Part shown: positions 5,524 through 15,121 of the stretch, piece after piece | Layout of the letters: each line of letters starts with the position of its first letter | Numbering within the stretch: the first letter of the stretch is position 1 | Assembly: GCA_003158875.1 (NCBI GenBank) | Contig: PMLK01000058.1 | Location: forward strand, 1 to 50,841 | DNA length: 50,841 bases | DNA from: Chloroflexota bacterium | GTDB lineage: Bacteria; Chloroflexota; Limnocylindria; Limnocylindrales; CSP1-4 | Direction: 5' to 3' | Translations under genes and position numbers: made by a program | Notes under the pieces: generated by a model | Told to the model about the DNA's origin: nothing | Database searches by the model: none | What the model saw: the letters and a program-made list of their open reading frames with translations, nothing else

Positions 5524-6342
5524 GTGGATCCGATCTACGTGATCTCCGGCCTTGGCGAGCTGCCGTGGCATGGAACACTGGCCGCACCGACCCACGTTCC
5601 CGCGGACATCGCGGCCATCTTCGTCCTGGCCGCGATCTATGGAGCCGCCTTCGGTTGGATGGCACGGATCGCCGGCCACAGGCTCAGGGTCTGGTTTCCG
5701 CTGGCATTCATCGGCGGCCTGTTCGCCGGCGTCCTCGCCGAGATCATCGTGGGGGTGGCGTTCGCGGTCGCCGTCTTTGTGGCACTCCCAACGCGTCCAC
5801 TGACGCTCGAGGAAGACGCCGCGGTGGAACCGATGCCCGGCGTCGTGGGCAAATCCTGGTACGTGCGCGGGCGCGCCTATTGGGGCATGCGGATCGTTGC
5901 CGTTGCGGCATTTGGTTGGACTGTACTCATCGGTGCAGCCATTTGGGTTGGGATGGCCCAGGCGATCGCCGCACCGCCGGAACGCGGCTTGTTGGGCGAC
6001 TTGCTGCCACCGCCACCGGACCCGTTGCTGCCCTTCAAGCTGGTTGGCCTGGTGGTGGTGTGCATCACAAGCAATCTCATCTCGGGCACACGGATGTGGA
6101 CCTCACTGAGGGCAACGGATCGCAGACTGCTGGCTCTGCCGGCGCACACACCGTTGCCCTGGCCGCGATTTCGGCCGCACTACGGACTGCGGCCGTTGTT
6201 GCTCCTGGCCTTGCCGTTTGTCACGGGCGCGCTTTCGGTGCTTCTGCTCGAATACTGTCGCCACGAGATCCCTTCGGAGCGGCTGATGCGGGCACGAACT
6301 CAGATGCGCCTTCAGCGGAGACGGTCCCGATCCGTTGCTTGA
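5524..6342 (+). CDS. Integral membrane protein, about five helices, unknown function
   Basis: A 272-residue protein starts at GTG 5524 behind AGGAGAGG. Likely membrane helices cover about residues 30-52, 60-90, 120-145, 165-182 and 222-245. Between the second and third is an acidic, proline-containing loop (EEDAAVEPMPGVVGKSWY), and the C-terminus is strongly basic ([13 protein letters not shown]-like), so it is probably cytoplasmic. I recognise no family motif. It starts 65 bp after the aminotransferase stop on the same strand and may share its transcript. Confidence 0.75.
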   Translation: MDPIYVISGLGELPWHGTLAAPTHVPADIAAIFVLAAIYGAAFGWMARIAGHRLRVWFPLAFIGGLFAGVLAEIIVGVAFAVAVFVALPTRPLTLEEDAAVEPMPGVVGKSWYVRGRAYWGMRIVAVAAFGWTVLIGAAIWVGMAQAIAAPPERGLLGDLLPPPPDPLLPFKLVGLVVVCITSNLISGTRMWTSLRATDRRLLALPAHTPLPWPRFRPHYGLRPLLLLALPFVTGALSVLLLEYCRHEIPSERLMRARTQMRLQRRRSRSVA

Positions 6343-6547
6343 GTGCCTGAGCCAGCTCAAGACCAGTGGACGCAGGGTTCGATGTGGGCTAGATCCAGTG
6401 AGCAGGCGAGCGGGCGGGCAGGCCGCTTACCCTGGGCTTACGTGGCTTTCACAATTCCCCCACGAGTGGCCACCAGTGTGAGGCGCGAGATTGGGCCGCT
6501 GTGGTCCAAGTCTTCCCAGATTGGGGACGTCACACAGGGAGACCGAA

Positions 6548-6997
6548 ATGACCACGCCGCTTCCTGAGCCAGCCGCGGGAGACCGGAATATCGGAGCCGG
6601 GGCTGCCGGGCTACTGCCCCTCGCGTTCGCGGCGTTCATGGTCCTTCATGGCCTGGTCCACGTGATCGGTTTCACCGCGCCGTGGGGCATCTATGCCATG
6701 CGGGGCGTAGGGTACTCAACCGCGATTCTCAACGGTTCGATCGACATCGGCGACGCGGCCTCCCGCGCGCTCGGACTGGTGTGGCTGGCGGTCAGCGTCG
6801 CCTTCGTGGCGGTTGCGGTGATGCTCTGGCGCCACCATCCGCTGGCGCGTCGCGCGACCGTCGCCGTCTTGCTGTTCTCACTGGTCCTGTGCGCCATCAG
6901 GCTGCCCGGCGCTGTGGCGGGACTGGGCATCGACGTCGTGCTGCTCGCGCTTCTGGCGGTCGCGTCGGACCGGCTGATCCTTCGACCCAACACTTGA
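6548..6997 (+). CDS. Small integral membrane protein, about four helices
   Basis: ATG 6548 is preceded by AGGGAG six bases upstream. The 149-residue product has a short polar N-terminus and about four helices: LLPLAFAAFMVLHGLVHVIG, then a segment around residues 70-95 (LGLVWLAVSVAFVAVAVML), one around 103-118 and one around 122-140. The HGLVHVIGF motif in helix one, with two membrane histidines, is the most distinctive feature. The family is not recognised with certainty. It sits 37 bp before an acetyltransferase gene that appears to have its own promoter. Confidence 0.7.
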   Translation: MTTPLPEPAAGDRNIGAGAAGLLPLAFAAFMVLHGLVHVIGFTAPWGIYAMRGVGYSTAILNGSIDIGDAASRALGLVWLAVSVAFVAVAVMLWRHHPLARRATVAVLLFSLVLCAIRLPGAVAGLGIDVVLLALLAVASDRLILRPNT

Positions 6998-7021
6998 GCG
7001 GACGGCGGGGCCCGAGTGGGA

Positions 7022-7027
7022 TAGTCT
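7022..7027 (+). promoter_or_regulatory. -10-like hexamer TAGTCT for leaderless acetyltransferase gene
   Basis: TAGTCT ends seven bases before the ATG at 7035, and there is no Shine-Dalgarno sequence in between. This matches the leaderless pattern seen at other genes in the window. Confidence 0.45.
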
Positions 7028-7034
7028 GCCGCTC

Positions 7035-7484
7035 ATGATCGAGATCCGACGCGCCGAGGACTATGACCGCAGCGCCATCGAGCGCTTGCTTTCATCGAAC
7101 GACCTGCCGCTCGATGGGCTGGACCGCGCCTTACCGCTCGCCCTCATCGCCGTCGATGGCGGCAAGCTCGTAGCTTGCGGGGCGATCGAGCCGTACGGCA
7201 TCTCGGGGCTGCTGCGATCGATCTGCGTCCAGGCGGAGAGTCGCGGAACCGGCGTCGGGTATCGACTCGTCGAGGCACTGGAGAAGCTAGCGCTGGACTC
7301 GGGGATCGGCGAACTCTTCCTGCTTACGGAGACGGCCGGCGCCTGGTTCCCCAGGTTCGGTTACGAACCCGCGGAGCGTTCGGTCGCGCCCGCGGCCATG
7401 GGCGATTCGGCAGAATTCACGATCGCCTGTCCGGTGAGCGCGCTTCTGCTGCGAAAGAGCCTGGCACGGGTGCCCGGCCGCTGA
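7035..7484 (+). CDS. arsN2: GNAT acetyltransferase, ArsN2-like
   Basis: A 149-residue cytosolic N-acetyltransferase. The fold is shown by an N-terminal IEIRRAEDYD strand-helix, the central LVACGAIEPYGISGLLRSIC beta region, the acetyl-CoA pyrophosphate loop AESRGTGVGYRLVEALEKLA (motif A, R/Q-x-x-G-x-G/A), and FLLTETAGAWFPRFGYEPAE. The block LLTETA...WFPRFGY...AAMGDSAEFTIACPVSA is characteristic of the ArsN2 group often encoded with arsenic resistance genes. No other arsenic gene is in the window, so the substrate is uncertain; the family call is firmer than the function. It is probably translated from a leaderless mRNA. Confidence 0.75.
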   Translation: MIEIRRAEDYDRSAIERLLSSNDLPLDGLDRALPLALIAVDGGKLVACGAIEPYGISGLLRSICVQAESRGTGVGYRLVEALEKLALDSGIGELFLLTETAGAWFPRFGYEPAERSVAPAAMGDSAEFTIACPVSALLLRKSLARVPGR

Positions 7485-7541
7485 CTCGAGCGGCTTTGAG
7501 GTTAGACCAGCAGCCTGCCCCGGACGGCTCCGAAGACCGGA

Positions 7542-7790
7542 TCAGCCCGGGCGGACCTTGGCCGGGCAGTAGGTGGTGCTGGCGACCTTGCGCTGGGCCC
7601 ATGTTTGGCCGGCGCGGTTTCGGCCCTTCAACCAGGCCTTGCGGTCACGAAGGTGGCTGCGCTGGACGCCGGCGCCGCCGGTCAAGCGGCTGTCGACGGT
7701 GGCCGCGGGCGCGGCGCGGTATCCAGACTTGCCACTGGCTTCGGCCTTGGCTGGAGCTGGCGAATTTGCGGCTGTGTTCTCGTCGGCCAT
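7542..7790 (-). CDS. Small basic protein, 82 aa, hypothetical
   Basis: ATG at 7790 follows CGGAGAC at a plausible ribosome-site distance. The product begins with an Ala/Pro/Lys-rich tail (MADENTAANSPAPAKAEASG) and ends in a compact basic segment with Trp residues (RDRKAWLKGRNRAGQTWAQR, then a single Cys before KVRPG). The composition suggests a nucleic-acid-binding or otherwise cationic protein, but I recognise no family. The opposite strand is also open here, so the call rests on the ribosome site and the non-random N-terminal composition. Confidence 0.45.
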   Translation of the reverse strand: MADENTAANSPAPAKAEASGKSGYRAAPAATVDSRLTGGAGVQRSHLRDRKAWLKGRNRAGQTWAQRKVASTTYCPAKVRPG

Positions 7791-7890
7791 GGTGGTCTCC
7801 GTCTTGGGTGCGTCGGGCGCGTCTTAGCGTCGGGCGTCAGGGTTGTGGTTGGAACCGCGGCACGGTGGTCAGTCTCCAAGGACTGGCCGT

Positions 7891-8253
7891 CTACGCGGCG
7901 GGGGCGACCTTCTCGGCGTCACGGCCTACGCCCATCTCGCCTCGCACTGCTGACGCTCCGTGGCTGTGGGACCAGGTCGAGACGGCGGCTGCGAGCGCGG
8001 GTGATTCGGGGCGAACCGAGAGCTTGTCGTCCTGGCCGCGGAGGTTCGGACCAAGCTCGGCAAGCACACCTCGGTAGGCAGGCTTGTCGTTCTGCGTGCG
8101 ATCAATGGGAGGGTAGACGTCGAAGTAGCCGTCGGTGCTCACGACGATGAGCGCATCGGCAGTTCGGAAGCTTCTGCGAGCCACCGGCCAGTCCAATCTG
8201 CCGGACGCTGCGGGCGACGTAATCGCGACCCGGCGCAGTCGGCGACTGACCAC
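7891..8253 (-). CDS. Uncertain open frame, 120 aa
   Basis: A GTG-initiated frame gives a 120-residue product with a plausible globular middle (ADALIVVSTDGYFDVYPPID, then AYRGVLAELGPNLRGQDDKL). No Shine-Dalgarno or TANNNT element supports the start, and I recognise no family. The middle looks more protein-like than the competing frames on either strand. It may be a degraded or incorrectly started gene. No better candidate exists between 7791 and 8338. Confidence 0.3.
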   Translation of the reverse strand: MVSRRLRRVAITSPAASGRLDWPVARRSFRTADALIVVSTDGYFDVYPPIDRTQNDKPAYRGVLAELGPNLRGQDDKLSVRPESPALAAAVSTWSHSHGASAVRGEMGVGRDAEKVAPAA

Positions 8254-8338
8254 AATGGGACCATCGGGGCCTTAGGTCAAATCGGGCCACGTTCGGGGGC
8301 ATCGAGCTGACGCCCCGCGATCCCCACGGCCGTCGGGA

Positions 8339-8674
8339 CTAAGCCCTTACGAGAGGTCGATTGGCGCGGGACCAGGCGCTGGTGCCACCCTTAACGGAAA
8401 CGGCGCCCTTAAAGCCCTCGCCGAGCAGGAAGTTGGTCGCGCTGCGGCTGCGACTGCCGCTGGCGCAGATCACGGCGTACGGCTTGTCGCGCTTGAGTTG
8501 CGCCGCTCGCAAAGGCAGCTTCTTGAGGGGCACATTCACCGCTCCGGGCACGCTACCGCGCCGGAACTCCCAATCCTCGCGGACGTCGAGTACGCGGACG
8601 GAGCGGCTCTGAATGAGCGCGTCGAGCTCAGCGACGGCGATTTCGGGAGTGCTCAGGCGAGAGAAGAAGCGCAT
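8339..8674 (-). CDS. Rhodanese-like sulfurtransferase domain protein
   Basis: A single-domain rhodanese of 111 residues, the normal length for this class. It shows the CH2A motif (VRVLDVREDWEFRRGSVPGA), the VNVPLKKL strand, and the active loop CASGSRSRSA with catalytic Cys70 that carries the persulfide. CGGAGCA lies before the ATG. It acts in the cytosol in sulfur transfer or detoxification. It is divergent from a DUF2892 membrane protein gene, with a palindrome between them. Rhodanese and this type of membrane protein are fused in E. coli YgaP, so the pair probably works together. Confidence 0.9.
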   Translation of the reverse strand: MRFFSRLSTPEIAVAELDALIQSRSVRVLDVREDWEFRRGSVPGAVNVPLKKLPLRAAQLKRDKPYAVICASGSRSRSATNFLLGEGFKGAVSVKGGTSAWSRANRPLVRA

Positions 8675-8734
8675 ATCTGCTCCGTTGGAAGTCGTGGATC
8701 AGTCGATCCGTCGTGCAGGTGCCAACATAGCCGC

Positions 8735-8754
8735 ACTTGCATGATTGCGCAAGT
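8735..8754. promoter_or_regulatory. Palindrome ACTTGC-N8-GCAAGT between divergent rhodanese and DUF2892 genes
   Basis: A perfect 6-bp inverted repeat with an 8-base spacer lies about 60 bp before the rhodanese start and 100 bp before the DUF2892 start. Its size and symmetry fit a dimeric ArsR/CstR-like repressor site that would control both genes. No such repressor gene is in the window. Confidence 0.5.
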
Positions 8755-8853
8755 AGCATAGTAGTGGCCCGCTCCGATGTATCCATTTCGCCGCGGATCT
8801 CGTCCTTGGAGTGAAGGCGGCACAAAGCCCGTCTCAACCAAGGAGAACCAATC

Positions 8854-9066
8854 GTGAAGCTTCAGATCAACGAAGGCCCGATCGACCGCGGCATTCGCAT
8901 CATCATCGCGATCGCACTGCTAGTCGCCGCCGCAGCTGGGCTGCTCGCCGCTCCTCTTGTCTATGTGACCTCGCTCGTCGGTGCCGTCCTGCTCGTCACA
9001 GGCATCGTCGGCTTCTGCCCGCTGTATGCCATCCTTCGACTCAGCACCGTGTCCGCCCGAAGGTAA
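8854..9066 (+). CDS. DUF2892 family inner-membrane protein (YgaP C-terminal-like)
   Basis: A 70-residue protein from GTG 8854, eight bases after AGGAGA. It opens with the family signature NEGPIDRGIRIIIAIALLVA and has two membrane hairpin helices (IIIAIALLVAAAAGLLAA and LVGAVLLVTGIVGFCPLYAIL), with the conserved Cys-Pro in GFCPLY. In YgaP the equivalent helices follow a rhodanese domain and are linked to thiocyanate or sulfur handling. Here the rhodanese is encoded divergently. The sigma factor gene starts four bases after the stop. Confidence 0.9.
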   Translation: MKLQINEGPIDRGIRIIIAIALLVAAAAGLLAAPLVYVTSLVGAVLLVTGIVGFCPLYAILRLSTVSARR

Positions 9067-9070
9067 GCCT

Positions 9071-9865
9071 GTGACCCAACAAACTCAGCCGGCAGCTCAG
9101 GCCGGCGAGAACGAGGCGGATGCGTTCGCCGAGCTTCTTGCGGCCGAGCTGCCGCGCCTGGTGGGGCTCGCAACGCGGCTCCTGTCCGACCCGGACCAGG
9201 CCGAAGACTGCGCCCAGGAGACGATCGTCGGCGCGTGGCGTCGACGCGATCAACTGCGCGATCCGGCCGCTCTCCCGGCATGGTTGAAGCGTAGTCTGGT
9301 CAACCGAATCATCGACCGCTCAAGGCGCAGACACGATGAACTCGACATCGAGTCTGACTGGAAAGACGATGCCTACTCCGTTCAGCCGGAACTCGTCCTG
9401 GAAAGGGCCGAACTTCGCGACGAACTCGAAGACGCGCTGGCTCGCCTGCCGGTCATCTACCGGCTGCCGGTCGTCCTCCACGATGCGCTCGGCTGGACCG
9501 GGGTCGAGATCGCCAACTCCATGGACGTGAGCCTGCCTGCTGCCAAGCAGCGTCTCCGGCGTGGCCGGATGATGCTGGTCAGCGCCCTCGCCTCGTCCGA
9601 CGGACGCCGTGAGGCAAGCCTGGCACAGCCGATGAGATGCTGGCAGGCGCGGCGACACGTTTCGTCCTACCTCGACGACGAGCTGGACGAAGCCACGAAG
9701 TCGATGGTTGAGGAGCACCTTGCCGGCTGCCCAACCTGTCCGCCCCTCTACACGAGCCTGGTTGGGATCCGTGCCACTATGGGCGAACTTCGCGACGCCG
9801 ACGCGGTCGTCGACGACGGCATCGCCGGCCGAATCCACGAACGTCTGGGTCGGGAGCGTCCCTGA
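9071..9865 (+). CDS. ECF-type sigma factor with fused zinc-binding anti-sigma-like tail
   Basis: A 264-residue transcription factor from GTG 9071. Sigma region 2 covers about residues 15-90 (LVGLATRLLSDPDQAEDCAQ, then PAWLKRSLVNRIIDRSRRR), and region 4 about 118-172 (ALARLPVIYRLPVVLHDALG, then a helix-turn-helix ending AAKQRLRRGR). After a short linker, residues 188-235 form a zf-HC2/ZAS-like segment: CWQARRHVSSYLDDELDEAT and H216-x3-C220-x2-C223, the usual zinc ligands of anti-sigma factors. Normally that module is a separate membrane-anchored protein; here it is on the sigma factor and has no membrane helix. Redox or zinc control in cis is an inference. The gene is close behind the DUF2892 gene. 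Confidence 0.85.
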   Translation: MTQQTQPAAQAGENEADAFAELLAAELPRLVGLATRLLSDPDQAEDCAQETIVGAWRRRDQLRDPAALPAWLKRSLVNRIIDRSRRRHDELDIESDWKDDAYSVQPELVLERAELRDELEDALARLPVIYRLPVVLHDALGWTGVEIANSMDVSLPAAKQRLRRGRMMLVSALASSDGRREASLAQPMRCWQARRHVSSYLDDELDEATKSMVEEHLAGCPTCPPLYTSLVGIRATMGELRDADAVVDDGIAGRIHERLGRERP

Positions 9866-9890
9866 GCCTGAGAACCGATCCGAGTCGGAG

Positions 9891-10406
9891 ATGACTGCAA
9901 AGATCGTGTGCCCGCAATGCGGAGCCCTCGTTATGGCTATCGACGGACCCGTCCACGCCTACGTTCCGAGCGCCCCGGGCTGCTGGGCGGCGTTCGGTGC
10001 CCTCCGCGCCGACGAGATGCTCCGGTTCGCCGGATTGGAGGCGAACAACCTGGTCGTCGACTCCTACATGGCCCAGCACCCGGGCGATGGCCTGGATAGG
10101 CGGGACCGCCAGTCCGTGTTCGTGCACCTGGTGAGCCTGTGCGCGGTATTGGAGCGCGGGGCGTCGCCGTTACGCTCACCGGATGTGCTTCGAGCCGTTC
10201 TCGCTCGCCAGACGGATTTCCCCGTTCTCTTGAGGGCTCGCGGTCCGGGCGAACTGACCGTGCTTTCCGCGATGGGCGCGACGAGCGCCGAGGATCACGA
10301 TGCGCGGGTCCGTGCCTGGGCAGGCTCCGTCTGGGCGTCATGGCGCGAGCATCACTCCCGAATCAGGGCCGCCCTCGACACCGTTTGGCCAGTCGCTCAC
10401 AAGTAA
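9891..10406 (+). CDS. DUF5946-like protein with N-terminal CxxC
   Basis: A 171-residue soluble protein beginning MTAKIVCPQCGALVMAIDGP, with one CPxC zinc-knuckle-like pair, then VHAYVPSAPGCWAAFGALRA, a DSYMAQHPG segment and a conserved-looking VHLVSLCAVLERG helix. This order (Cys-pair, pGCW, Y-x-x-QHP, H-L) matches DUF5946 proteins as I remember them. Function unknown. It starts 25 bp after the sigma factor stop, with GGAG touching the start codon, and ends 14 bp from the convergent glpK. Confidence 0.7.
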   Translation: MTAKIVCPQCGALVMAIDGPVHAYVPSAPGCWAAFGALRADEMLRFAGLEANNLVVDSYMAQHPGDGLDRRDRQSVFVHLVSLCAVLERGASPLRSPDVLRAVLARQTDFPVLLRARGPGELTVLSAMGATSAEDHDARVRAWAGSVWASWREHHSRIRAALDTVWPVAHK

Positions 10407-10420
10407 CCCTTCGAAGCGAG

Positions 10421-11953
10421 TCAGCGTGCTCCGCCGGCGTCGTCGGGCGAGACCCAGTCGAAGGTCCGGGTGACGGCCCGTTTCCAGTTCGAGTACTCGC
10501 GCGCTCGCCGGTCCGCGGGCATCTCCGGATTCCATCGCCGATCCTCGGCCCACTGGCCACGGAGATCGTCGAGCCCGGCCCAGAAGCCAACCGCGAGTCC
10601 CGCGGCGTAAGCGGCGCCGAGCGCGGTCGTCTCGGACACCCGGGGCCGGATCACGGGCACTCCGAGTACATCCGCTTGAAACTGCATCAGCAACTCGTTG
10701 TGGACCATGCCGCCGTCCACCTTCAGCGCCTTGAGCGCCACTCCAGAATCGGCGTTCATCGCGTCGAGCACCTCGCGCGTTTGCCAGGCTGTCGCCTCGA
10801 GAGCGGCCCGCGCGATATGGCCTCGGCCGGCGTATCGGGTCAGGCCCACGATCGCGCCGCGGGCTTCGGCACGCCAGTACGGGGCGAAGAGCCCGGAGAA
10901 GGCGGGCACGAAATACACGCCGCCGTTGTCCTCGACCATGCGGGCAAGCGTCTCGACCTCGGCGGCCTTGCGGATGACACCCATGCTGTCTCGGAGCCAC
11001 TGAACGAGAGCGCCGGCGATTGCGATCGAGCCTTCCAGGGCGTAGACCGCCGGCGCCGAGCCGATCCGGTAGCCGACCGTCGTCAGCAGGCCGCTCTTGC
11101 TCACAACCGGCCTGGTCCCGGTGTTCAGGAGCATGAAGCAGCCCGTGCCGTAGGTGTTCTTGGCCTCGCCCGGAGAGAAGCATGCCTGCCCGAACAGGGC
11201 CGCCTGCTGGTCGCCCAAATCGCCCGCGATCGGGACGCCAGCGAGTCTGCCGACCGCCTCGCCGTAGAACTCGCTCGAGGACCGGATCTCGGGCAGCATG
11301 GCGCGGGGAATGCGCATCAGGCCGAGGAGTTCATCGTCCCATTGCAGCGTCTCGAGATCGAACAGGAGGGTCCGGCTGGCGTTCGTCACGTCGGTGACGT
11401 GAACGCCCCCGCGTCGACCGCCGGTCAGGTTCCAGATGCACCAGCTGTCCACAGTGCCGAATAGAAGCTCGCCGGCTTCGGCTCGCGCCTGAGCCCCGGG
11501 CACGTTGTCCAGAATCCAGCGGACCTTAGGCCCGGAGAAGTACGTCGCGAGCGGCAGTCCCGTCTTCGGACGGAAGCGGTCCTGCCCACCGTCGCGAGCC
11601 AGCTCAGTGCAGATGTCGGCCGTTCGTGTGTCTTGCCAGACGATGGCGTTGTGTATGGGCTGGCCCGTCTTGCGGTCCCAGACAACGGCGGTCTCGCGCT
11701 GATTCGTGATGCCGACCGCGGCCAGATCCGAGGGCGGGACGCCGGCCGCGGCCATCGCGCCCCGCAAGATCGCGTCCACCCGCCTGTTGATCTCGAGCGG
11801 GTCATGCTCGACCCACCCGGGCTGGGGCATGATTTGGCGATGTTCGCGTTGCGCGATACCGACCGGCGATCCCGTCCGATCGAAGATGATGCAGCGGCTG
11901 CTCGAGGTTCCGAGGTCGAGCGCAGCCACGTAGTCGCGGCGAGGCCCCGGCAT
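10421..11953 (-). CDS. glpK: Glycerol kinase
   Basis: Phosphorylates glycerol with ATP to sn-glycerol-3-phosphate in the cytosol. The 510 residues match the FGGY-family glycerol kinase length. Visible features are the phosphate-1 loop [13 protein letters not shown] near residues 13-25, [10 protein letters not shown], the substrate block [14 protein letters not shown] with its Arg-Glu pair, IVWQDTRT, and the ATP-side motifs [11 protein letters not shown] and [20 protein letters not shown]. The start codon overlaps the glpD stop by one base (TGATG), so expression is coupled to glpD. No glycerol facilitator gene is adjacent. The N-terminus is a few residues longer than in E. coli GlpK. Confidence 0.96.
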
Positions 11954-13665
11954 CAGGAGCCCTCCTCAGGCACGTCGTACTCGCGGTGGGCCTCGCGGAG
12001 GTAGGTCTGGACGGCAGCGTCTCGATCGGCCGCCGACCAGCCCAGTTCCGGACCCGCCAGCTCCGCGACGCGGTTGGCCACGGCCGCCGCTCGATCTGGC
12101 AGCTCTTGCGCCAATCTGGTTCTGCGGGCAAGGAAGTCGTCGACCGACAGGGCGCTTTCGTTACGGACCGACCAGACGACCTCAACCTCGAGCGGCGAGG
12201 GCCCGGTCCCGAGCGGTCTCAGCAGACCCAGTTCCTTGCCGAGGCGGACCACATCGGAAGCTTCGGTGCCGTAGCGAGCGACCAGGCGGTCGGCGCTGGA
12301 CCGTTCGAGGCCGGCATCTGTCGCCAACCGTGCCCCGAGTGCGGCGAGCGCCAGCGGCGTAGCTGACCCGACGATCGGGGTCTCGTGCGTCCTGGACGGC
12401 CGCTTCTTGGCCGCGGCAAAGCCGAGGGCTGCGTCGACGGCCTGGAGCGCCATCAGGCGGTACGTCGTGTACTTGCCGCCACTGATCCGGACCAGGCCGT
12501 TCGAATCGGTCCGAATCCGGTGTTCACGCGACGCCTTGACCGTCGAACCCGGTGTTCCTCCAGGATCGGTGGCCAGCGGCCGGAGGCCCGCGAACGCCCC
12601 GGCGACATCGTTGCGGCTGAGATCCACGTCGAGACTTCCGTTTACGTTGTCGAGGATCTCGTCTACCTCGGCGATCGTCGGCGTGGAGCGATCCGGAGGG
12701 GCGTCGGCCTCGTGGTCGGTCGTACCGATGACCCAGCTGTCGGGCTCGGGGACCAGGAAGCAGACACGGTGCGGTATCCGCAGAGTCAAACCGTAGCGAC
12801 TCGGGATTCGGTCGCGCGGCACCACCAGGTGAACGCCGCGGCTGGGCTGCGTCAGTCGTCTTGCGGTCGCCGGGAACGGCCCATCGGCCCGACCGGTCCA
12901 TACACCCGTAGCGTCGACGACCGAGGTTGCGCGGACTTCGAATTCCGAGCCACCGAGTTCGTCTCGGACGACGCAGCCTACGAGGCGTCCGCCTTCTTCG
13001 ATGCCGCTGATGGCCCGCGCTCTGGTCAGAGCCAGAGCGCCCATACCGCGAGCGGTCCTGACGACGCTCACCGCGTACCGAGCGTCGTCCTCCTGCCCGT
13101 CATGGTAGAGAAACGCGCCGCGAAGGCCCTTGCGGCGCAGGTCGGGAACCGCCGCGAGCGATTCCTCGACAGAGAGGTGTCGATGGAAGCCGCCGTCGGC
13201 CGACGCTCCGAGCAAGTCGTACATCGTGAGCCCGGCGCCGTAGAAGGGCCGGGCCAATGGGCCGCCGTAGATCGGGAAGAGGAACGGCTCGAGGCGAACA
13301 AGGTGGGGCGCCAGCTTCAAGAGTATCGAACGCTCGCGTAGCGCTTCGCGTACGAGGCCGATCTGGAATTGCTCGAGGTATCGCAGCCCGCCGTGAATCA
13401 GGCGTGAGGAACGGCTGCTCGTTCCGACGGCGAAGTCGTCGCGCTCGATGAGGGCGGCCCGAAGCCCTCGGCTGGCAGCGTCGAGCAGGACTCCGCAGCC
13501 TGTGATTCCGCCGCCGACGACCAGCAGGTCCCAATGGTCCCCGGCAAGTGCTTTGAACTCGCGGGCACGTGCGTCGAGGACGGCCGCGGACCGGCGACCG
13601 CCCGACGAAGTCACCTCAGTCAACGAGAAACTCCCTTCCGCTCGACCCTGGGAGCGCAGCGTCAT
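11953..13665 (-). CDS. glpD: Aerobic-type glycerol-3-phosphate dehydrogenase (FAD)
   Basis: Oxidises glycerol-3-phosphate to dihydroxyacetone phosphate and passes electrons to the quinone pool, here presumably the menaquinone made by the operon at 20-29 kb. The FAD-binding [20 protein letters not shown], the [18 protein letters not shown] block, and the C-terminal DAO domain with GLRPLATD and [13 protein letters not shown] are all present; about 570 residues is normal. I chose ATG 13665 because TATCCT lies nine bases upstream, a leaderless arrangement; a TTG three codons earlier is possible. It forms a two-gene operon with glpK. An extended polar N-terminus of about 40 residues precedes the Rossmann fold. 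Confidence 0.94.
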
Positions 13666-14014
13666 TCGGTTCAAAGGATATGGCGAGCGAGATGCGCCCG
13701 GTTGCGCCGCAGGCGGCGAAAGCTGCCGCGTGGACTGTCACCAGAGTTCGTGGCGGAACCTGGCGAGTCGTGAGTCCGGGGAGGGTGGCTTCAACTTGCC
13801 TGGTCATGTTCAGACGCGCCTCAAAGCCGGGATGCGGGCCAGTATAGGCGGGCATCGAATGGACCCGAGCCGGCGGTGACAACTACGCCTCGGGCGAGAC
13901 TGGATCCTCATCCTCCGCTCGTTCGGGACTCGCCGTGCAGGCTTCCCGATTGCACCCCTCGATCCGACGGCCGACGTGCTAACTTGGCGAAGCATTACCA
14001 GGCAGAGGTGGGAT
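13666..14014. other. Intergenic region between divergent glpD and zinc-ribbon protein gene
   Basis: This 349-base stretch holds the glpD -10-like TATCCT (about nine bases before its ATG) and presumably the promoter of the gene at 14015. I found no clear operator palindrome or small gene. A frame extends the downstream gene to GTG 13976, but without a ribosome site. Confidence 0.5.
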
Positions 14015-15121
14015 GTGGGGAGTTACTACCAGGTCACGAGAACTCCGGGCGGGGGTTATTGGGTCAACGAGGGCGATGCCTTCGATGGCATAGCGACCGA
14101 GGGCGCGGCTCTCGCCGGCGCGGCTATCGGACTAGCCGTCTTCGGGACCTTCCGTGCCGTCGGGAAGTTCAGGCACGACCGCGCCTGGGCGGCCATCGAG
14201 CGGGCGGAGCAAGCTCAGGACTGGCCGCTGCTGGAGAGACTTGCTGGCGGCTTCGTCCGATCTCATCCCGAAGAACTCAGCGGTTACGGAGCACTCGCCC
14301 AGGCGATGCTGGAATTGAAGAGGCCGCCCGCAGACGTCGTTGCCATGACCAACCAGTGGCTTTCCCGCGGAGGCTCTGCGGGCGAGATATCCGGCGTGCG
14401 CGCCCTCAGCTACCTCGACGCTCAACAGATGGCCAACCTGCTCCGCGAAGCCAATTCCCTCGTCAACTTCAATAACGAGTACAAAGTTCTCGGCCACATG
14501 ATGCGAGCGCGGGCTCTGATGTGGCTCGGCGACCTCAGCGAAGCTATGGTCAACGCCACAACCGCCGTCTCGCTCATGCCGGAGCGCATGCCGTATGAAG
14601 TCCGAGGCGATGTCCGTTGGGCTTCAGGCGATCTCGCCGGCGCGATCGAAGACTTCGGCCGGTCGATACGCCTCTCCGACGATCCCATCGAACTGCTCGA
14701 GAAACGGGCCTCGGTCAAGCATGCCCAGGGCGACGATGCGGGCGCCGAGGAGGACGCTCACCAGGCATCCGAACTGATCGAACAGAGAAGGGCGGCGGCC
14801 GAGGCTAAGGCGGCGGCGATCCAGGCGATTCCGTCGGGCGGTTGGATGCCTGAACAAGCGCGGCCGTCAGGAATTGCGTGTCTCAACTGCGGCTACGATC
14901 GAACCCCAGCCGGCAAGGCCAGTTGCTTCAACTGCGGCCGACCTCTGCCCGGGACGCCGTCTCAGGATGCCGTATCCGTTACTCAGCCTCAGGGAGTCGC
15001 CGAAGCAACCGCGCCACAGCAAGCTGATTCGACCCCGGCATGCCCAAACTGCGGCTACACGCGGACCCCGACCGGCAAGGCCAGCTGCTTCAACTGCGGC
15101 CGACGCCTGCCCACGGAGTAA
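14015..15121 (+). CDS. Helical-repeat (TPR-like) protein with two C-terminal zinc ribbons
   Basis: A 368-residue protein from GTG 14015, chosen because GAGGTGG lies just upstream. A short N-terminal region (VTRTPGGGYWVNEGDAFDGI) precedes one possible membrane helix (GAALAGAAIGLAVFGTFRAV). Then come TPR-like helical pairs (about residues 50-270: HPEELSGYGALAQAMLEL, MRARALMWLGDLSEAMVN, RGDVRWASGDLAGAIEDFGR). The tail holds two nearly identical zinc ribbons, CLNCGYDRTPAGKASCFNCG and CPNCGYTRTPTGKASCFNCG, separated by a Thr/Gln/Ala-rich linker. TPR and ribbons suggest a scaffold for protein contacts. Function is not recognised. Confidence 0.75.
   Translation: MGSYYQVTRTPGGGYWVNEGDAFDGIATEGAALAGAAIGLAVFGTFRAVGKFRHDRAWAAIERAEQAQDWPLLERLAGGFVRSHPEELSGYGALAQAMLELKRPPADVVAMTNQWLSRGGSAGEISGVRALSYLDAQQMANLLREANSLVNFNNEYKVLGHMMRARALMWLGDLSEAMVNATTAVSLMPERMPYEVRGDVRWASGDLAGAIEDFGRSIRLSDDPIELLEKRASVKHAQGDDAGAEEDAHQASELIEQRRAAAEAKAAAIQAIPSGGWMPEQARPSGIACLNCGYDRTPAGKASCFNCGRPLPGTPSQDAVSVTQPQGVAEATAPQQADSTPACPNCGYTRTPTGKASCFNCGRRLPTE

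Follow-up and report, generated by a model that had tools for sequence, protein, structure and literature searches.

Among the closest described systems to the locus analysed here are SigR/RsrA of Streptomyces and SigH/RshA of Mycobacterium, both of group ECF12, in which an ECF sigma factor is likewise combined with a soluble ZAS anti-sigma factor of the CHCC type. Oxidation of the CHCC site of RsrA expels zinc and the sigma factor is lost, and redox-induced release in ZAS proteins needs the N-terminal cysteine, that is, the CHCC type (PMC4960319). In class I anti-sigma factors, helix 1 touches sigma-4 and helix 4 touches sigma-2 (PMC7406223). Anti-sigma-like extensions fused to the sigma factor, soluble or membrane-bound, are reviewed for several groups, with ECF48, ECF52 and ECF53 as zinc-finger fusions carrying transmembrane helices (PMC8999054); fused ZAS domains are therefore already known. 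In the open-licence literature searched, reactive sulfur is sensed by repressors and by regulators of other kinds, CsoR-like, MarR, PerR, SoxR and AdpA among them, and no ECF sigma factor was found there in such a role. In PerR, polysulfide frees zinc from a Cys4 site (PMC9952342).

The window, by which we mean the whole stretch of 50,841 nucleotides, comes from a Chloroflexota MAG of 2.64 Mb in 124 contigs. The features of the locus are as follows.

8339–8674, minus strand: rhodanese (Pfam PF00581), divergent neighbour
8778–8804, plus strand: ECF-type promoter TGTATCC-N16-CGTC, presumed autoregulatory; 0.07 expected in the window by shuffling
8854–9066, plus strand: YgaP-like transmembrane protein (PF11127), first gene of the operon, ending 4 bp before the sigma start
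9071–9865, plus strand: ECF sigma factor with a fused C-terminal ZAS domain, 264 aa, GTG start at 9071, stop ending at 9865
9140–9331, plus strand: sigma-2 domain, aa 24–87 (PF04542)
9419–9577, plus strand: sigma-4 domain, aa 117–169 (PF08281)
9638–9739, plus strand: CHCC zinc-site region C190-x25-H216-x3-C220-x2-C223 (PF13490), ligands by homology
9891–10406, plus strand: DUF5946 gene (PF19371), 26 bp downstream of the sigma gene

The original prediction, an ECF sigma factor with a zinc-binding type of domain at its C-terminus, holds in its coordinates, its frame and all three Pfam domains, each of which scores above its gathering cut-off: Sigma70_r2 at aa 24–87 with 56.5 bits against 24, Sigma70_r4_2 at aa 117–169 with 40.9 against 25.7, and zf-HC2 at aa 192–223 with 40.4 against 22.2. 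Sigma-2 and sigma-4 are present without sigma-3, and no other sigma domain was matched in Pfam, as in the ECF class (group IV); the sigma70-ECF model TIGR02937 gives 73.0 bits against a cut-off of 42.9. No Pfam match at E 1 to the SnoaL-like or TPR C-terminal domains of ECF41 and ECF42 was found in the protein. Its only cysteines are C47, C190, C220 and C223, and the ligand strings and the Cys220/Cys223 numbering first quoted for it are correct on translation. CHCC ZAS proteins carry H-x3-C-x2-C with a cysteine 23–26 residues N-terminal to it, and C190 lies 26 residues before H216. The spacing is identical to that of the RsrA ligands C11, H37, C41 and C44 (PMC4960319). The pattern C-x24-26-H-x3-C-x2-C arises in a fraction of 1e-5 of 200,000 shuffles of the protein, and one of the 488 stop-to-stop frames of at least 60 aa in the window contains it, namely the sigma gene itself. 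No second HxxxCxxC frame of at least 60 aa occurs in the window, which agrees with the claim that no separate anti-sigma gene adjoins, for anti-sigma factors of the ZAS type. A profile of the ZAS part matched a single PDB sequence, 3hug_B (E 2.3e-5), presumably RslA bound to sigma-L. AlphaFold2 left the ZAS part at low confidence, with a mean pLDDT of 64.6 in the full-length protein and 62.2 for the piece alone, so no cis docking is seen in the model; Foldseek with the full model re-found ECF sigma factors only and therefore gives no evidence for a ZAS fold.

The fused protein is found without an internal stop in 15 of 101 genomes (the window genome and 100 relatives), and all 15 carriers belong to a single family, f1, for which the search covered 61 genomes. 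Scanning genome contigs yielded at least 21 loci; 18 are orthologues (L009–L026) and three are other ECF sigma factors. Fourteen loci from the 101-genome search lie largely on the same contigs as L009–L026. Among 400 genomes of the phylum, with six candidates scored per genome, at least nine have a match spanning sigma and ZAS parts, all of them f1; two of the nine were scored with one TGA, and the aligned proteins from the same contigs (L022, L023) are open. The alignment comprises 22 rows: the window protein, L009–L026, and three loci from the 101-genome search only (L035, L037, L038). Its 21 Chloroflexota orthologues are 59–92% identical to the window protein. C190, H216, C220 and C223 are invariant in all 22 rows, as is the string CPTCPPLY, and C47 is kept in 21. 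The four ligands are also invariant in 17 of 17 rows of a set that includes two Rhodococcus proteins of about 30% identity. Conservation of the ZAS part is close to that of sigma-2 and sigma-4, with mean majority-residue fractions of 0.84 and 0.89 compared with 0.85 and 0.88. One further genome, G056 (L097/L111), has the ZAS part only (profile aa 189–269); SQR-like, HdrA-like and ArsR-type genes lie in the same region.

Both neighbours that the original prediction had named are present: the rhodanese domain PF00581 (8339–8674, minus strand) and PF11127 (8854–9066, plus strand), which we take to be the former DUF2892. In 19 of 22 fused loci the gene immediately before the sigma gene, on its strand, is YgaP-like; at L026 the match is weak (E 8e-5), L024 has none, and L019, which starts at a contig edge, is not assessable. 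The proposed search for a conserved promoter motif upstream of 8854 was successful. The site at 8778–8804 lies 49 bases 5′ of the YgaP-like start, and the same site, TGTATC-N17-CGTC, precedes the YgaP-like–sigma operon in 19 of 22 loci. The exceptions include L098 with one mismatch and L019, again not assessable; in L024 the site precedes a CoA-disulfide reductase–rhodanese gene. A whole-genome search that kept the right spacer and tolerated one mismatch placed the site in 16 of 17 carrier genomes, at 29 places, compared with 3 for the reversed pattern, and in 15 of the 17 it stands at the YgaP–sigma operon. A spacer one base shorter gave 12 scattered places and the operon site in none of the 17 genomes. 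No sigma-70 promoter was found in a scan of 8300–10500, and Rfam at gathering scores returned nothing for 6000–14000. The window sigma factor presumably uses the TGTATC-N17-CGTC promoter. Among 15 non-carrier genomes, G004 alone has a full-looking site, at a YgaP-like gene that is cut short and with the sigma gene missing. There (L093, 6560–6851) the promoter and the start of the YgaP-like gene survive, the remainder and the sigma gene are absent, and the remnant sits between TauE/DUF1634 and DsrE_2/TusA/DsrE/ArsR genes; it is a loss or an assembly join.

The DUF5946 gene stands beside the sigma gene in the window genome only and is absent there from the other 21 loci, and therefore it is probably outside the sigma module. 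The FGGY kinase and DAO/DAO_C genes at 10421–13674 (minus strand), similar to glycerol kinase and glycerol-3-phosphate oxidase, are apparently unrelated. At 13976–15121 a protein ends, by eye, with a zinc-ribbon-like unit, CxNCGYxRTPxGKASCFNCGRxLP, twice after TPR-like sequence.

We lean towards the reading of the protein as a one-chain sigma/anti-sigma switch, in which an RsrA-type domain inhibits in cis and an autoregulated operon answers reactive sulfur or thiol stress. For the window protein, we infer zinc binding, cis inhibition, the trigger signal and autoregulation. In a reduced resting cell, the CHCC ZAS domain would bind zinc and pack on sigma-2 and sigma-4 of its own chain, by which the sigma factor would be kept off RNA polymerase. 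A persulfide, polysulfide or other thiol oxidant would attack C190, C220 and C223, and the loss of zinc would let the ZAS domain refold and release the sigma part. The free sigma factor would then transcribe from TGTATC-N17-CGTC, foremost its own YgaP-like–sigma operon in positive feedback, and in some genomes further sulfur or redox enzymes that may lower reactive sulfur. Second promoter-like sites, which mark candidates for such further targets, lie 5′ of genes for a methyltransferase that includes a CMD/AhpD-like part, in G333 (on the contig of L018), in G059 and in L021; the proteins with such sites, in three genomes, are encoded at L103 2678–3745, L094 4944–6053 and L021 3583–4704, with CMD above its cut-off in two of the three and with uncertain start codons. 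G050 has a second site 5′ of a CoA-disulfide reductase–rhodanese gene, and G051 has one 5′ of a second YgaP-like gene. Most other second sites, including four in the window genome, have no evident target and look random, and a regulon beyond the YgaP-like–sigma operon is therefore only suggested.

Control by reactive sulfur or thiol oxidation had been proposed from the neighbouring genes. This proposal is supported by sulfur neighbours in many relatives, yet not in all. Within 5 kb of the 22 loci, TauE and DUF1634 each occur at 8, rhodanese and OsmC each at 6, DsrE_2 and DsrE each at 4, ArsR-type genes at 9, TusA at 5 (two reference proteins combined), SQR-like genes at 4 (one partial) and HdrA at 2. 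To confirm the neighbour names, single representatives were compared with Pfam or NCBIfam, and the SQR-like and HdrA-like matches are below NCBIfam's own cut-offs. Within 10 kb in the 15 carrier genomes, rhodanese is found in 7 (0.35 expected), DrsE_2 in 4 (0.07 expected) and TusA in 4 (0.13 expected); nearly all of this enrichment comes from the genus of the window, so neither the 15 genomes nor the p-values are independent. None of the sulfur reference genes was found at six of the 22 loci (L014, L015, L016, L017, L026 and L100), some of which have short flanks, and L021 and L099 have an ArsR gene at most. A sulfur island joined to the sigma gene was looked for in the window genome and not found; its DsrE_2/TusA genes are on another contig (C104), with no promoter site.

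Relatives outside the phylum are carried on plasmids. Thirteen records of a plasmid collection match, 12 from Rhodococcus and one from Arthrobacter, and the Rhodococcus protein as query found no record in a phage collection. Each of the 12 Rhodococcus records matches at least 80% of the protein WP_011331570.1 from plasmid pREL1 of Rhodococcus erythropolis PR4; in six of these the match is split in two, suggestive of a frameshift or of a different start. Two of the plasmid proteins were translated; both are fused and have the four ligands at about 30% identity. Five of the 12 Rhodococcus regions were viewed. TauE is present in all five and rhodanese in four, the fifth stretch ending in TauE; a YgaP-like/DUF2892 gene adjoins in four, with an IS256 transposase in its place in the fifth; one neighbour is annotated DUF2892, and DsrE occurs in two. 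In two Rhodococcus loci, a search close to the gene gave no promoter of the type seen in Chloroflexota. Sulfur-gene neighbours in two distant bacterial groups suggest that the one protein serves as a sensor of reactive sulfur or of damage to thiols. The wider claim, of a sulfur-dedicated ECF family across Chloroflexota and Actinomycetota that has merged sigma factor and RsrA-type sensor into a cis persulfide/thiol switch for its own YgaP-like operon, is a real possibility that we put forward tentatively. Alternatively, the same cis zinc switch could answer general disulfide or peroxide stress, as SigR/RsrA does, with sulfur and redox genes merely clustering around it. The CHCC pattern and spacing equal to those of RsrA are in favour of this, and so are thioredoxin and CcdA, which flank four of the five Rhodococcus copies viewed. 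However, YgaP-like, TauE, rhodanese, DsrE and TusA genes recur in two phyla, and we consider a general stress signal rather unlikely. The Rhodococcus copies bring the question into culturable bacteria.

Whether the extension is an anti-sigma domain at all can be approached from a two-gene counterpart. The window protein is one chain, whereas in ten loci of families f44, f21 and f22 a short ZAS frame of its own comes after the sigma gene. The ZAS proteins of L113 and L118 (65 and 84 aa) match zf-HC2; at L113, L118 and L120 a small neighbouring protein matches YgaP-like_TM above cut-off. CxxCPxLY is present in 10 of 10 split ZAS proteins versus none of 16 other ZAS proteins from the same profile search (Fisher p 1.9e-7, the groups being related sequences); the split label was fixed before this count, with the motif already seen in two of those loci. 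Within 2.5 kb, 6 of 10 split loci have a YgaP profile match (E 0.1 or better), versus 0 of 28 other ECF loci. Sulfur genes are not obvious at the split loci; the exception is a thioredoxin-like gene at L120. In a sigma tree the fused proteins form one clade (100/99); eight of the ten split proteins are its weakly supported sisters (77/87), and two f21 loci fall elsewhere. In a sigma-plus-ZAS tree, the fused, split and Rhodococcus proteins form a group apart from 15 other ECF rows (95/96). On whether the Chloroflexota and Rhodococcus fusions go back to a single event, the support is 52/23, with a long-branch warning. Given these two-gene homologues and trees, the fused protein is best read as merged sigma and anti-sigma genes, and its C-terminal domain as the short soluble ZAS anti-sigma encoded next to sigma genes in other Chloroflexota families, in keeping with the original assignment and with its CHCC type. 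Another locus of the window genome (L002; G000 contig C55) has a sigma gene and, after it, a separate gene in frame that contains hydrophobic stretches and looks like an ordinary membrane anti-sigma.

The two-gene layout also bears on the possibility that the domain is required for activity, or is structural only, and inhibits nothing, comparable to metal-activated CorE and to ECF42 extensions. Activating extensions are known (PMC8999054), a zinc site can be structural, as in RsiW (PMC7406223), and the ZAS part is unusually well conserved. Nevertheless, its homologue is a separate short gene beside the sigma gene in the ten split loci, the usual anti-sigma layout, and we hold an activating or structural role to be improbable.

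Activation might instead depend on proteolytic removal of the extension, a route proposed for ECF48/52/53, the known fused ZAS sigma factors (PMC8999054), and shown for IutY. ECF48, ECF52 and ECF53 have a transmembrane helix after the zinc finger. As first predicted, the window protein has no membrane anchor, its highest 19-residue Kyte–Doolittle mean being 1.12, and no transmembrane segment was found among the 22 aligned proteins (mean at most 1.32). A membrane-protease route is therefore not expected; a cytoplasmic protease could act instead, and proteolysis as a whole appears very improbable. A chance or artefactual fusion by frameshift or assembly error, for which one could cite the MAG contigs and the broken versions in G004 and G056, is refuted by the conservation of open fused frames in 22 aligned loci and in the two translated Rhodococcus proteins, and its probability is negligible.

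The one-chain switch towards which we lean can now be set beside known systems. Its sulfur setting recalls the sulfane-sulfur circuit of S. coelicolor, which includes a CsoR-like protein, a persulfide dioxygenase, rhodanese and TauE, the last two in common with the present loci; in the account of that circuit in PMC7533328, however, control lies with a CsoR-like repressor and not with an ECF sigma factor. CorE/CorE2 (ECF238) and OrbS (ECF243) likewise carry, in a soluble C-terminal extension, a cysteine motif that is believed to sense metal in cis, but with other cysteine patterns and no ZAS fold as they are presented in PMC9023288; the ECF238 motifs described there, C-x4-C-x2-C-x-C for CorE and CC-x3-C-x2-C-x-C for CorE2, do not occur in the window protein. 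ECF48, ECF52 (SCO4117) and ECF53 resemble it in having sigma factor and zinc finger in one chain. PMC8999054 and PMC5826349 describe them from Actinobacteria, with extensions that are long and include one or two transmembrane helices, whereas the window protein is soluble and its extension short. In the open-licence literature searched, no soluble CHCC fusion was found described together with sulfur genes and a YgaP-like partner, and the 2021 ECF classification may already include the fused group. The two-gene Chloroflexota counterpart and the fused Rhodococcus protein share with the window a YgaP-like neighbour in most cases and a CHCC ZAS domain with CxxCP. They differ from it in that sigma and ZAS are separate genes in the former, and in the low identity (about 30%) and the divergent YgaP-like gene of the latter. 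SigR/RsrA and SigH/RshA have a gene neighbourhood unlike that of the window; RsrA has seven cysteines, compared with three ligand cysteines and C47 here; and their anti-sigma factor is a separate protein, whereas here it is the C-terminal domain. If our reading is true, sigma factor and redox anti-sigma share one chain, release would be a unimolecular conformational event, and such a single-chain switch would be easy to reconstitute and engineer.
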